Of a DNA stretch of 14,393 bases, positions 6,941-11,660 are shown one piece after another. This DNA is from Bacteroidales bacterium (GTDB lineage Bacteria; Bacteroidota; Bacteroidia; Bacteroidales; 4484-276): the NCBI GenBank assembly GCA_018400545.1, contig JAGYLT010000028.1, positions 1 to 14,393 on the forward strand, in the 5' to 3' direction. The notes beneath the pieces were generated by a model that was not told the origin of the DNA, did not search any database, and was given only the letters and a program-made list of their open reading frames with translations. The translations under genes and the position numbers were made by a program. How positions within the stretch are numbered: position 1 is the first letter of the stretch; the number at the start of each line of letters is the position of its first letter.

Positions 6941-7660
6941 CTACCGTTTTTTTACGGAGCCGGCGCCGCTAACGTTGCTGTCAACATTGGGATTTCCAAT
7001 GTACCTTACTGATGACGCGCCGCTGGCATTTACCCTGAGAGATTCGGTGGCATGCAGTTTCGCATCAGAAGCGCCGCTTACCTGAAGTTCTATTTCTTCC
7101 GCAATTAGATCGTAGGCGTTAATTTCGGATGCGCCCGAAACTTCAAAATTGCATTCGCGAACTTTTCCCGAAAACTTAGCTTCGCTGGCTCCTGAGAAAT
7201 CAAACCCGATAAACTCTGCGGTTAAATCCAGGTCAATCTCCGATGCACCGCTGGCTTCGAGGTTCAATCGTGAGAAAGCTAAACTGTTGGTTGCTTTAAG
7301 CTCGCAAGCCCCGGAAATATCGATTTCGTCCAGGGATTTAAAACTGACATAAATGTTTAATGCTTTTGCCCACCCAATATTTTCCTTTGCGTTAATATGG
7401 AGCATGTTCCCTTTCACCTTTGTTTTGATGATGGGGTGCAGGTTTTCATCCGCTTCAACGGTAACCGATTCCGCATCTCCCTGGGTAAGGATAACATTAA
7501 ATGCCCCACTAACATTGATAGCACTAAACGATCCGGTTTCGCGGGTTTCTTTAATTACATTTCCGTTGCCATCAACGCCATCCATAAACATGCACCCTGC
7601 TGAGGTAAATGTTGTGAATAGTAATATCATAATGGCTAAAGTTGTTGCCGGTTTCATCAT
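6941..7660 (-). CDS. GIN-domain (DUF2807) lipoprotein with SGAS repeats
   Basis: A 239-residue exported protein of the head-GIN/DUF2807 type. The signal peptide ends in a lipobox (TSAGC, Cys23). The family head region follows (GNGNVIKETRETGSFSAINV, residues about 31-50), then a beta-helix-like repeat region with eight SGA[S/C/F/G] turns spaced about 16-25 residues apart (ISGACE, ASGASE, FSGASE, VSGASE, VSGASD, ASGASS, VSGAGS). Such proteins are thought to form parallel beta structures on the envelope; their ligand is unknown. Last gene of the ECF operon, 29 bases after the upstream paralogue and followed by the terminator at 6889-6922. Confidence 0.9.
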   Translation of the reverse strand: MMKPATTLAIMILLFTTFTSAGCMFMDGVDGNGNVIKETRETGSFSAINVSGAFNVILTQGDAESVTVEADENLHPIIKTKVKGNMLHINAKENIGWAKALNIYVSFKSLDEIDISGACELKATNSLAFSRLNLEASGASEIDLDLTAEFIGFDFSGASEAKFSGKVRECNFEVSGASEINAYDLIAEEIELQVSGASDAKLHATESLRVNASGASSVRYIGNPNVDSNVSGAGSVKKR

Positions 7661-7689
7661 AATGAATTTGTTAGGTTAAAGATTTAAAA

Positions 7690-8541
7690 TTATCTGTGAT
7701 AAACATCGCCTGATCCTGAGGTGGATACATCTACAGTTTTGGGTTCACCCTTGTAGGTCAAATCACCGGATCCGTTTAGCCTGACTTTTAAATTGCCTGA
7801 AACAGAAACCACAATATCACCTGACCCGTTGCCTTTTGCCGTAACATCCTGAGCTTTTAGGTTATAGAGGTTAACATCTCCGGAGGCGGACAATGTTACT
7901 TCAACTTCGTTTGCTGATCCGGTCAACTCAACATCACCGGAACCCATAACTGATATCCCGCAAAAATTCAATTGCATGTCGTCGCCGTCAAAGCTTCCGG
8001 AGCCATTGATTTTGAGATTAAAATCGCCTTTAACACCTGAAAGTTCCATATCTCCTGATCCACTAATCGAACTCGAAACATTTTTCATATCCAAATCCAA
8101 TTCTATGTTGCCCGACCCATTTATTCCAACATCGAGCCCAATGCCGGAGATGGTGTTTTCAGATTCCACATCACCCGAACCATTTACCCTGATTTCATGC
8201 AGGTTTTTAACAGTTACATAAACTTCCATTGTTGTTGAGCGGGAAATGCTTCCGTCGATATCGATTTTCAATTTGTCGCCGCTAACATCTGTTTCGATTT
8301 TTTCGAGCAGGTTCTCATCGGCTTTTACGACCACTTTGGTTGATGATCCACAGCTAATGAATAAATCTGCAGAACAATTCAGGCTTATTTCTGAAAAATT
8401 CCCGACATTCCTTTCTGACTAACCACATTCCGTTTCCTTTTACGCCGCGGCCCCACTGAGCAAGGCATTATCAGCTATCCTTGTAGCACAAGTAATGGCT
8501 GATATTCCCAGTAAATTTTTCAAGTTTTTCATCTTCATCAT
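7690..8541 (-). CDS. GIN-domain (DUF2807) protein with GSGD repeats, N-terminus frame-disrupted
   Basis: A paralogue of the next gene. The intact part runs from about 8410 to 7690: NVGNFSEISL, then KADENLLEKI, then nine GSGD-type turns (NGSGDVE, SGSGDME, MGSGDVE and so on), ending in VYHR. The natural start is probably ATG 8541 or 8538 (MMKMKNLKNLLGISAI), 24 bases after the true stop of the gene before. That frame meets TAA (8442-8440) and TAG (8421-8419). The missing head is present in the other two frames: GVKGNG in one, NVVSQK in another, then back to NVGNF in the first. Three single-base losses, near 8451-8454 (GGGG), 8427-8430 (AA) and 8411-8414 (AAA), explain this. A GTG at 8334 would give only a leaderless fragment. 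Sequencing error is more likely than decay; a real pseudogene is possible. Confidence 0.8.
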
Positions 8542-8565: not shown

Positions 8566-9617
8566 TTACATATCAATGGAAACGTTTCCAAAGGAACTTT
8601 CGATTTTTACGGTGGACTTTGGGTACCGCTGCCAAATGTACCGCGATAATATTTTCGGTAGGCTCAATAATGCGTTCCGAGAGTTCGCCTGACCACCCGG
8701 ATATTCCAGATCACAAAACTCCATGTTTGCTTCAAGGCTGAAGGAGACATCACTTTCGAAGTTGAGCGTTGATGATCAAAACTATTTACCACACTAATTT
8801 TGGAAAACTCAGCGGAAATTCGATGGACTTTCAGACTGCCATATTCAGTATCTGCTTCCATCATCCTGCCAAGGTAGCTGATCTTAAATTCTGAAAAATT
8901 TGAAGAAAGATCAACCTCATCCACGCGATCAACAGTTACATTACCACCTTCATTTTCGATCTCAAGGTTGCGTACTCCGGCAATCGAAACCGTTGAATAT
9001 TCTGATTCTATGCTCAATTCCGAAGCTTCGCCAATGGTGGCCGTTGAATAAGCAATCTCAACATCGGCTGATCCGATTTGGTCGATACGGGCTTCTCCAA
9101 AACTCACTTCCACATCATTGTTATCGGAAGCCAGCGATCCAATTTCAATTGATCCGTACTGGATACTGATGGATGATTGGCCTGAAACTTTTTCTATGTA
9201 GGCATTTCCAAACTGATGGTCAATTTCCAGCCTCACCGACTCCGGTATCATAATTTCGATGTTGATGGTCAGGTTGTTTTTGCCGTTGTTAAATATTTTT
9301 TCGTTAAAATCGCTTTCCACACGAACCTCATTTCGGTTGCCTTCCAGTTTAATGCTTACTTTATCGATTATTTTGTTTGCTTTCTCCACGCTGGTTGCAT
9401 TCACCGAAGCGATAACTTTTACCGATATGGCTTTTTGGTCCCAGTTTGTGCATTTCAGTTTACCAAATTTATGTTCCACCGAAAGCAAAGCATTGCTGTT
9501 TACATCAAATTTTTGTTGTGCGAGTGTTCGTTCCACCTCATCGGCTTGAGCAAAACTTACCTGAAGCAGTAGCAGCGCCAGGGTGAAAATTCCTGTGATC
9601 ATTTTTATCATTTTCAT
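8566..9617 (-). CDS. Exported DUF4097-like beta-repeat protein, C-terminus frame-disrupted
   Basis: The ATG at 9617 opens a signal peptide (about residues 1-25, ending SFAQA), then repeating beta-strand sequence (FGKLKCTNWDQKAISVKV, HQFGNAYIEKV, IQYGSIEIGSL, SFGEARIDQI) like DUF4097/GIN-type adhesin-like proteins. The uninterrupted frame runs to a TGA at 8664, but its last 43 or so residues are atypical. Continuation in other frames is clear: FESDVSFSLEANMEF, then ELSERIIEPTENIIAVH, then FGSGTQSPP, then VKIESSFGNVSIDM and TAA at 8568-8566. Four single-base losses account for it, near 8763, 8689, 8635 and 8613, each in or beside a short homopolymer. The corrected gene has about 350 codons and ends 24 bases before the next ATG, as expected in this tightly spaced operon. 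It lies 13 bases after the putative anti-sigma gene. Confidence 0.8.
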
Positions 9618-10815: not shown

Positions 10816-10877
10816 GATTTTCACCTAAGTGACACACATCATTTTAAATTGTTACAATTGCTGCGAAATTTTTTGGG

Positions 10878-10910
10878 TAAAGATAGGATAGGGGAGGTAT
10901 AAAAACAAAA
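10878..10910 (-). promoter_or_regulatory. Promoter of the ECF sigma operon
   Basis: On the minus strand TTTTG (10906-10910) is followed by TATCTTTA (10878-10885), one base from TAnnTTTG. The gap from TTG to the -7 element is 20 bases. The expected start near 10871 gives a leader of about 50 nt. The -33 element is part of the U-tract of the upstream RNA's terminator. The match is to the housekeeping consensus, not to an obvious ECF-type site. Confidence 0.55.
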
Positions 10911-10940
10911 CGGGAACCCAATCTTTCGATTAAGTTCCCG
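10901..10940 (-). terminator. Intrinsic terminator of the structured RNA
   Basis: On the minus strand 10940-10911 folds into an uninterrupted 13-bp stem (CGGGAAC, two U-G pairs, AAUC) capped by a GAAA tetraloop. It is followed directly by UUUUGUUUUU (10910-10901). The two U-G pairs become C-A mismatches on the plus strand, and the loop is GNRA only on the minus strand, so the transcript is leftward. Confidence 0.9.
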
Positions 10941-11484
10941 TTCGCTTCGGAGTCACCATAGTGGCTCTTCCACGCCAAGTTACAGTTATTATGGTTGTTC
11001 GTTCCGGGTTTCCCTTGCGGGATGCCCTTTCCCGAACCTGATCCGGTTGTAACCCCGTTGCCGGTTTTACAGGTCCGAATCGCTGTTTGTTAGCGGGCTT
11101 TCAGTATGTTGGTTCCGTAGAACCTCCCTGATTGCCCTGATACCGTTGCAATGCCTTGCGGTGTTGCTTGCCTTTCCTTGCGGTCAGGCCTTTGCGGTAT
11201 CCTGGTTCCCTGGAAGCGTCACATGTTTCCTGTACACGGGGTACTTTCCGCATTTGACGTCCCTGATGAAAACTTCCTTGCGGATGTTCAGGCTGTTACA
11301 CCTGACCGTCGATCCGAAGATCGGGGGCTTCATCGGGCAAACTCTCAAAGAACTGGTGAACCTTCCGGCCGGCAACCTAATGCCTTTCCTTTTTGTTCAC
11401 CCCGGGAGTTCCGAATTTGTTGTTGCCAACATTTTCTTTCTTCCCGCCGGCTTTCCAAAACAAACCTTTTATCTCTCGCTTGGT
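10901..11484 (-). ncRNA. Large structured noncoding RNA of unknown family (about 580 nt)
   Basis: Promoter at 11489-11520 and terminator at 10901-10940 bound a leftward transcript with no convincing ORF. Hairpins with GCAA tetraloops: 11418-11431 (UGUUG/CAACA), 11271-11288 (AAC/GUU outside, UCC/GGA inside), 11170-11189 (GCCU/AGGC, CC/GG), 11148-11167 (GCAA/UUGC, CC/GG), 11049-11070 (GUAA/UUAC, CCG/CGG) and 11006-11027 (GGG/CCC, CCC/GGG). UNCG-capped hairpins: 11310-11323 (CGAUC/GAUCG, UUCG) and 11111-11124 (GGUUC/GAACC, UACG). Other stems: 11288-11305, 11081-11095 and 11371-11384; helix 11217-11221 with 11255-11259 enclosing GUAC/GUAC; 11355-11361 with 11395-11401 (GGUGAAC/GUUCACC). A 7-bp stem, 11195-11201 with 11139-11145, closes a three-way junction. 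The hairpin at 10950-10967 pairs slightly better on the plus strand. I see no hallmarks of tmRNA, RNase P RNA, 6S RNA or group II domain V. Length and folds suggest a large ornate RNA; function unknown. Confidence 0.8.
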
Positions 11485-11488
11485 GAGA

Positions 11489-11520
11489 CAAATATAGGTG
11501 CATCCGCCGGCGGAAAGCAA
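11489..11520 (-). promoter_or_regulatory. Promoter of the structured RNA, with palindromic spacer
   Basis: On the minus strand TTG (11518-11520) is followed after 21 bases by TATATTTG (11489-11496), a perfect -7 element. The expected start is near 11484. The spacer contains CCGCCGGCGG (11504-11513), a perfect 10-bp palindrome placed where a repressor could act. CCGCCGGC occurs again at 11444-11451 inside the transcribed region. Confidence 0.65.
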
Positions 11521-11560
11521 GTTTTTTATGGCTTCGAAATTCACAAGATATTAAGGGGTT

Positions 11561-11660
11561 TTATCAACAATTGTTAATAACCTCTGAGGGTTCTATAAAT
11601 AAAGATATGCAGGGCTTTTTGCCGATTTACCGGGTGAACAATTTGTTAATAACCCTCGAG
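11561..11660. repeat. AT-rich near-palindrome and imperfect direct repeat
   Basis: TTATCAACAATTGTTAATAA (11561-11580) is a 20-base palindrome with one mismatched pair. Its right half, AACAATTGTTAATAACC followed by TCTGAG, recurs at 11637-11660 as AACAATTTGTTAATAACC followed by CTCGAG, with small indels. The second copy overlaps the last codons of the methyltransferase gene. Between them is AT-rich DNA with a weak GGC/GCC hairpin. It could be an operator, a scar of an insertion, or part of the methyltransferase 3' end; there is no U-tract for an intrinsic terminator. Confidence 0.45.

Follow-up and report, generated by a model that had tools for sequence, protein, structure and literature searches.

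A probable new class of structured RNA in Bacteroidota, with paired ends as its constant part and a variable, tetraloop-rich interior

Y RNAs, which bind Ro, have paired ends and a conserved internal loop near the base. Among large structured RNAs, GOLLD and ROOL are described as RNA-only cages, and OLE is hypothesised to sequester a ribosomal protein, in PMC12286853. 6S RNA occurs in Bacteroidota according to PMC9723704 and PMC7366714, the latter of which also places promoter elements of B. thetaiotaomicron at −7 and −33. Here we describe a predicted RNA gene of a Bacteroidales bacterium that probably represents a new class of RNA in Bacteroidota, present in at least two orders and matching no catalogued family.

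The window, the whole stretch of 14,393 nucleotides that was analysed, contains an intergenic gap for which the first-pass annotation, made from the sequence alone, had proposed a stably folded noncoding RNA, possibly of a new family, between a promoter and a terminator (Table 1). GC content was 0.47 and 0.52 in the two central 500-base windows of the gap, compared with about 0.40–0.45 in the surroundings. The predicted folding energy of the minus strand (positions 11490–10895) was −222 kcal/mol, against a mean of −175 kcal/mol over 100 dinucleotide shuffles (z = −6.97, with 0 of 100 as low), which bears out the stable folding. The plus strand of the same interval was also unusually stable, though less so (z = −5.0). 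A promoter, typed by consensus letters that we take to be those of Bacteroidota, and an intrinsic terminator were both read in the gap as proposed. Since the scan counts alone were not above chance (two terminators versus 1.2 in shuffles, and two E. coli-type promoter hits versus 1.0), the weight of both elements comes from their conservation; a TAnnTTTG-like box was found upstream of the 5′ motif in most members listed. Promoter, terminator and loops together point to a leftward reading direction, from about 11484 to 10900. The 143-aa and 111-aa forward ORFs and the 63-aa reverse ORF in the gap had no Pfam match at E 0.1, and a coding gene was rejected on this basis.

Table 1. Predicted features of the RNA locus and its flanking genes, in window coordinates.
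Feature	Position	Strand	Details
Intergenic gap	10825–11645		between the ECF sigma factor gene and the Methyltransf_32 gene
ECF sigma factor gene	10824–10240	minus	
Methyltransf_32 methyltransferase gene	12827–11646	minus	
Predicted RNA gene	10900–11484	minus	about 585 nt; ends are estimates based on the promoter and the terminator
Promoter, Bacteroidota type	11489–11520	minus	TTG at 11520–11518, 21 nt, TATATTTG at 11496–11489; read by eye
5′ motif	11463–11483	minus	(C)CAAGCGAGAGATAAAAGGTT; P1 5′ strand 11483–11479, loop strand 11478–11467, P2 5′ strand 11466–11463
Variable tetraloop-rich interior	10997–11462	minus	predicted to fold with six GCAA and two UNCG loops
Closed three-way junction	11139–11201	minus	two GCAA-capped arms; predicted fold, coordinates read by hand
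3′ motif	10975–10996	minus	AACCATAATAACTGTAACTTGG; P2 3′ strand 10996–10993, loop strand 10992–10980, P1 3′ strand 10979–10975
Hairpin after P1	10944–10974	minus	loop cUAUGg here, cUACGg-type in many members; CRC/GYG closure in many
Intrinsic terminator and T-run	10900–10943	minus	stem 10943–10908, from terminator scan

Several features were noted around the gene. A palindromic TTATCAACAATTGTTAATAA and a repeat of TTGTTAATAACC (window positions 11561–11580 and 11643–11654) lie close to where the gap starts, between the end of the methyltransferase gene and the RNA promoter. Downstream of the ECF sigma factor gene, two adjacent genes carry DUF2807 (head GIN) domains (6941–8334), and a third gene there (8664–9617) had no Pfam match. 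The methyltransferase had 7998 relatives, the closest among the matches listed sharing 85% identity, and was about 53% identical to those of the nearest named records, Bacteroidales or Bacteroidetes bins. In four cyanobacterial-titled bins (L006, L033, L036 and L047) a methyltransferase was 47% identical to that of the window over nearly its full length, possibly as a result of bin contamination or transfer.

No known RNA family was recognized. The Rfam 15 covariance models gave no match to the gap (cmscan, E ≤ 5), and none above cut-off on the loci of 23 relatives (E ≤ 1). The RNA strand carried two matches below cut-off, one to tfoR in locus L106 (25.6 bits against a cut-off of 70, E = 0.028, in the region of the 3′ hairpins) and one to Chlorobi-1 in locus L110 (20.3 bits against a cut-off of 50, E = 0.34). 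Both were taken as chance because neither recurred in the other members scanned. A description of this RNA, its motif letters included, was not found in the open PubMed Central literature. Outside the comparison lay the 49 intergenic sRNAs that PMC7366714 lists with high confidence for B. thetaiotaomicron, the Bacteroidetes motifs without an Rfam number (Bacteroides-2 and GUCCY-hairpin) in PMC2864571, the thousands of candidates of PMC8040213, and all subscription papers and preprints, so that an unnamed earlier prediction of this RNA is possible.

The starting set for the homologue search consisted of genomes related by their methyltransferase, 12 of which were searched with the RNA as DNA. 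Genome G001 contained a homologue of the same total length, whose 3′ 151 nt were 74% identical (E = 1e-16) and whose 5′ end gave another match, and genome G006 kept the two ends with a very different sequence in between. In both (loci L101 and L102, respectively), the ends of the RNA gene were the same and its length was similar. With blastn and nhmmer searches of the RNA against L001–L080, no homologue was found beside the methyltransferase elsewhere. The family shares a 5′ motif, YCARGYGAGNGAUAAAAGG, and a 3′ motif, YCAYAAUAACNGUARCYUGR, the latter followed by a hairpin (often cUACGg-capped) and the terminator. When up to 2 mismatches were allowed, 75 of the 295 genomes in the order of G006 matched the 5′ motif, against 29 for a reversed control pattern. 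Of 30 loci and 40 further regions examined, 15 and 28, respectively, had both motifs (the 28 regions with 29 copies), which gives 44 copies plus the window; the remaining examined loci had no 3′ motif as written, including L167 and L173, later matched by a covariance model of the 3′ end.

The two motifs contain the strands of two short helices, P1 (5 bp) and P2 (3–4 bp), which enclose a nearly invariant internal loop (5′ strand YGAGNGAUAAAA, 3′ strand NAAUAACNGUAR). All five pairs of P1 were formed in 44 of 44 distinct members. As these members were picked by motif, their invariant positions partly reflect selection, while the varied positions do not. Pair −1/20 was CG in 22, TA in 15 and TG in 7 members, and pair 3/17 was AT in 25, GC in 16 and GT in 3; each was reached by 0 of 2000 shuffles. 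Two further pairs were invariant, pair 4/16 hardly varied (250 of 2000 shuffles reached it), and the pair directly outside P1 (−2/21) was formed in just 4 of 44. In P2, pairs 17/2, 18/1 and 19/0 held in 43, 43 and 44 of the 44 members (reached by 17, 15 and 0 of 2000 shuffles, respectively) and pair 20/−1 in 31 (92 of 2000 shuffles); further P2 pairs were no better than shuffles.

Compensatory changes extended to the 3′ end of the gene. Across 43 sequences, 22 of the 25 pairs of the hairpin and terminator showed changes on both sides, a number that 2 of 500 shuffles reached, and the covariation score was 0.569, compared with 0.234 in shuffled and at most 0.145 in slid alignments. Within the hairpin after P1 (helices 1 and 2), 10 of 11 pairs were double-changed, with 83.5% and 76.5% of cells paired; the terminator stem (helix 3) covaried over the 43 sequences, with 93.2% of cells paired. 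RNAalifold alone recovered just the terminator stem, and the structure of the hairpin was drawn by hand. With compensatory changes among homologues and no match to an Rfam or a Pfam family, the proposal of a structured noncoding RNA of a possibly new family has held up in the comparison of sequences. The family itself is well supported, and the comparison supports an independent RNA gene, read in the direction given above. In six loci (L183, L184, L187, L250, L251 and L252), the cUACGg hairpin and the terminator were kept and the core motif was changed or shortened; these 3′ ends are possible distant relatives.

The covariance model, built on the 3′ end alone (R2, threshold E ≤ 1e-4), matched 65 of 295 genomes (74 places) in the order of G006, probably Bacteroidales, a count that is not independent, many of the training sequences having come from genomes of this order. 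It also matched 26 of 241 genomes (37 places) in the order of Marivirga arenosa (G313, Cytophagales), a named carrier of the RNA (locus L180), and 0 of 244 genomes in a control phylum, that of a Microcoleus bin, a control without a known positive. The 5′ motif lay within 900 nt upstream in 20 of the 20 Marivirga-order loci returned (16 new, several of them close relatives, and 4 whose 3′ ends were in R2), and its background rate was 15 in 1938 stretches of 900 nt. P1 paired at five of five positions in these loci (TCAAG/CTTGA in 12, CCAAG/CTTGG in 6, CCAAA/TTTGG in 1 and TCAAG/CTTGG in 1) in a test whose patterns fix letters (YCARR, YYUGR), so that only three of the five positions could fail; in a free-letter version, all five paired in 12 of 20 and the rest were misread or missed. 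The presence of the 5′ motif is the stronger point here. An older model (R1, E ≤ 1e-5, strict filters) matched 8 of 395 in a phylum-wide sample, four of the eight being partial or false; among its matches, L249 looks like a tRNA plus terminator, and L250–L252 keep just the 3′ part of the motif. A 40-genome search at E ≤ 0.1 gave matches in 33 of 40; among the best-scoring, the full 3′ motif was present only in G001, G010, G006, G313 and G316, many others being terminators.

The interior differed strongly in length between members. The distance between motif starts ranged from 191 to 558 nt and was about 130–150 nt in some Marivirga-order loci, and interiors could not be aligned across subfamilies. 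For the window, the predicted fold of the RNA (11484–10900) reproduced the six GCAA hairpins (loops near 11427, 11282, 11182, 11160, 11062 and 11019), the two UNCG hairpins (UUCG near 11319, UACG near 11120) and the closed three-way junction that the first-pass annotation had described; two of the six GCAA stems are just 2 bp before an internal loop, and P1 was absent from this single-sequence fold. By a stricter test, restricted to the interior and to 3-bp stems with two GC pairs, the window retained 4 GNRA and 0 UNCG hairpins, against 0.4 and 0.07 in shuffles, with neither kind on the opposite strand. Across 29 non-redundant interiors (out of 45 rows; 3-bp stems), 57 GNRA and 17 UNCG hairpins were counted, whereas 200 shuffles gave 7.5 and 1.4, with maxima of 15 and 6. 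The remaining kinds of tetraloop hairpin were not enriched (113 versus 122 in shuffles). This selective excess suggests that selection maintains stable RNA hairpins in the interior even though its sequence and length are free. Whole-fold models of two subfamilies gave double changes in 25 of 81 pairs with 34 of 81 violated (7 sequences) and in 46 of 141 pairs with 52 of 141 violated (4 sequences), and because of the violated pairs in both, the interior is only partly resolved. The comparison indicates that the paired ends are the constant part of the RNA and its ornate middle the variable part, which is beyond the reach of the window sequence alone.

The size of the RNA and the density of GNRA and UNCG loops in its predicted fold would suit an RNA-only assembly like GOLLD, ROOL and OLE, in which tetraloop arms dock to receptors in other copies, a homo-oligomer forms and the role of the ends is just to close each unit. 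Such an assembly is nonetheless unlikely, as conservation is lowest in the interior, which spans only about 130 nt in some Marivirga-order loci; contacts conserved between molecules are difficult to reconcile with this. Moreover, no phage or tRNA-island setting was seen, as judged from one viral-contig pattern and 40 loci. One exact pattern of the 5′ motif gave 2 matches in viral contigs, neither with a promoter or a 3′ motif, and tRNAs occurred in just 4 of 40 family loci; a phage element was rejected on the former result, obtained with that single pattern.

Where the RNA was found (40 of 42 sources), flanking genes occurred in both orientations. In a neighbour survey that left out ORFs overlapping the RNA, the largest clusters of proteins within three genes comprised 12 proteins from 6 of 40 loci and 9 proteins from 9 of 40 loci. 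Of 68 adjacent proteins with 120 aa or more, all but an open frame of 1393 aa were compared with Pfam, and the 67 matched DnaG in 5 of 67 and RelA/SpoT in 3 cases, with no higher count for the others among the 25 of 86 Pfam families listed. Some clades have a common neighbour and none is general; that neighbours differ between clades points to action in trans. A riboswitch, cis-element or leader was rejected because there is no general downstream gene, the clade-varying neighbours stand in both orientations and the RNA has its own terminator.

A base-pairing regulatory RNA with the conserved A-rich loop strands as its seed would likewise have its own promoter and terminator and no general neighbour. 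We consider this role rather improbable, because the invariant letters lie on either side of a single internal loop in both orders, which is more fold-like than seed-like, and pairing would presumably need no long folded interior. Known ribozymes have a tiny invariant core and a large variable periphery. That this RNA has the same proportions would agree with a catalytic or ligand-binding RNA whose active site is the P1–P2 internal loop, a reading that we regard as quite improbable given that the neighbours examined show no cis-linked gene or consistent pathway.

In several lineages, direct-repeat copies of the RNA, about 1.5–2 kb apart, flank a single gene (L304 in G755, L305 in G726, L306–L308, L233 in G050, L313 in G084, L311 in G893 and L312 in G904). 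The enclosed genes differed among the four scanned: a BNR repeat (sialidase-like) gene in L305, a polysaccharide lyase 14 in L233, a methyltransferase in L313 and an M48 peptidase in L311. Head-to-tail copies without a large gene between them were found in L310, L314 and L319. The direct repeats may reflect duplication or a cassette-like insertion habit.

One or two copies in many genomes and conserved ends are also what a very diverged housekeeping RNA (6S, RNase P, tmRNA or Y RNA) would show, and since standard 6S RNA (RF00013) matched 0 of 14 RNA-bearing genomes, their 6S RNA is not firmly located. Each candidate was nevertheless rejected, and this origin is very improbable. All 14 RNA-bearing genomes had an RNase P RNA (RF00010) match that exceeded the cut-off and lay elsewhere, and ARAGORN called no tmRNA in the window or in the 40 family loci. 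The gap and the loci of the 23 relatives matched neither RF00013 nor 6S-Flavo (RF01685), the predicted fold does not resemble the single rod of 6S RNA, and sub-cut-off 6S-Flavo matches lay elsewhere in 6 of the 14 genomes. For Y RNA, the Ro/TROVE protein was found in 2 of 295 genomes (G069 and G205), neither among the 65 RNA-positive ones. As a separate observation, the sub-cut-off 6S-Flavo matches in L253–L258 span the full model and are perhaps diverged 6S RNAs barely reached by current models. Finally, a protein-coding remnant, a repeat or chance structure, to which the 143-aa forward ORF might point, is barely credible, as that ORF has no Pfam match, promoter, ends and terminator recur with compensatory changes, the loops are enriched, and the covariation already contradicts such a reading.

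In the core, the YGAGNG and CNGUAR strands of the internal loop showed the combinations G6/A14 in 39 of 43, A7/U13 in 44 of 44, G8/G12 in 41 of 43 and G10/C10 in 44 of 44 members. Pair 5/15, which should flank a loop E, was formed in 34 of 44 members, a count that does not exceed that of shuffles. Loop E of 5S rRNA (RF00001) reads GGUAC over GGGAGAG in G137, G313 and G191, and the present RNA has NGUAR over YGAGNG; in G001, the fourth of the four RNA-bearing genomes read, the 5S strands differ (GAUAC over GGAAAAG). The GUA/GAG part of the core could form the non-Watson–Crick pairs of a 5S-type loop E. The likeness to 5S rRNA is a local motif only, the rest of 5S rRNA being absent from this RNA. 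Because loop E motifs are common among RNAs, the likeness names no ligand; because they bind proteins in known RNAs, a protein-binding core is the best guess.

With a probability of about one half, we favour a new family of RNAs acting in trans, in which the loop-E-like core at the ends would probably serve as a protein-binding site. Confidence in this reading comes mainly from the P1/P2 pairing test, the GNRA/UNCG excess and the covariation of hairpin and terminator. As supported by the comparison, the two ends of the RNA pair into a small constant core of P1, internal loop and P2, followed by the hairpin and then the terminator, and the sequence between the P2 strands is a lineage-specific, tetraloop-studded scaffold. 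This interior would need just to stay folded and compact. The core would be recognized by a protein, and the RNA, as a stable ribonucleoprotein, would act in trans. The search for a protein partner, which covered the single candidate TROVE, yielded none, and RNA-only, catalytic and base-pairing roles are compatible with the anatomy too. A more specific version, in which a Bacteroidota-wide trans-acting RNA mimics the 5S loop E and captures a ribosomal protein (L25/CTC type) or another RNA-binding protein, thereby tuning ribosome assembly or stress survival, is a long shot. If true, the interior, armoured with tetraloops and free to evolve, would serve as a scaffold without fixed sequence, and the RNA with its protein would represent a regulatory ribonucleoprotein of new design.

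With a length of about 240–650 nt and carriers among 65 of 295 and 26 of 241 sampled genomes of two Bacteroidota orders, an RNA gene outside Rfam would be a sizeable uncatalogued class in a major phylum. As the constant core comprises only about 45 nt, small mutations can test its function, and the variable tetraloop-rich interior is a natural experiment on the share of the scaffold in a large RNA.

In comparison with known systems, the RNA is new as a class by homology, large orphan structured RNAs being already known as a broad kind. Like 6S RNA, it is by prediction an independent RNA gene with paired ends; 6S RNA has a long rod with a central bubble, whereas the predicted fold of this RNA is without one. 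It shares paired ends and a conserved internal loop with Y RNAs as their anatomy is commonly described, and we know of no sequence common to both. The likeness to OLE, GOLLD and ROOL suggested by the first-pass annotation, which claimed no identity, stands for size and style alone: no match to any of the three was obtained in Rfam, no viral member was seen with one exact pattern, and tRNAs occurred in 4 of 40 loci. As with GOLLD, ROOL and OLE, it is a predicted stand-alone RNA of several hundred nucleotides with dense stable hairpins, in a group whose function is mostly unknown. Unlike in these RNAs, the constant part consists of two paired ends, and, unlike in GOLLD and ROOL, no phage or tRNA-island context was seen (one exact viral-contig pattern, 40 loci). 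With 130–560 nt between its motifs, this RNA resembles GOLLD, ROOL and OLE in size and style only.
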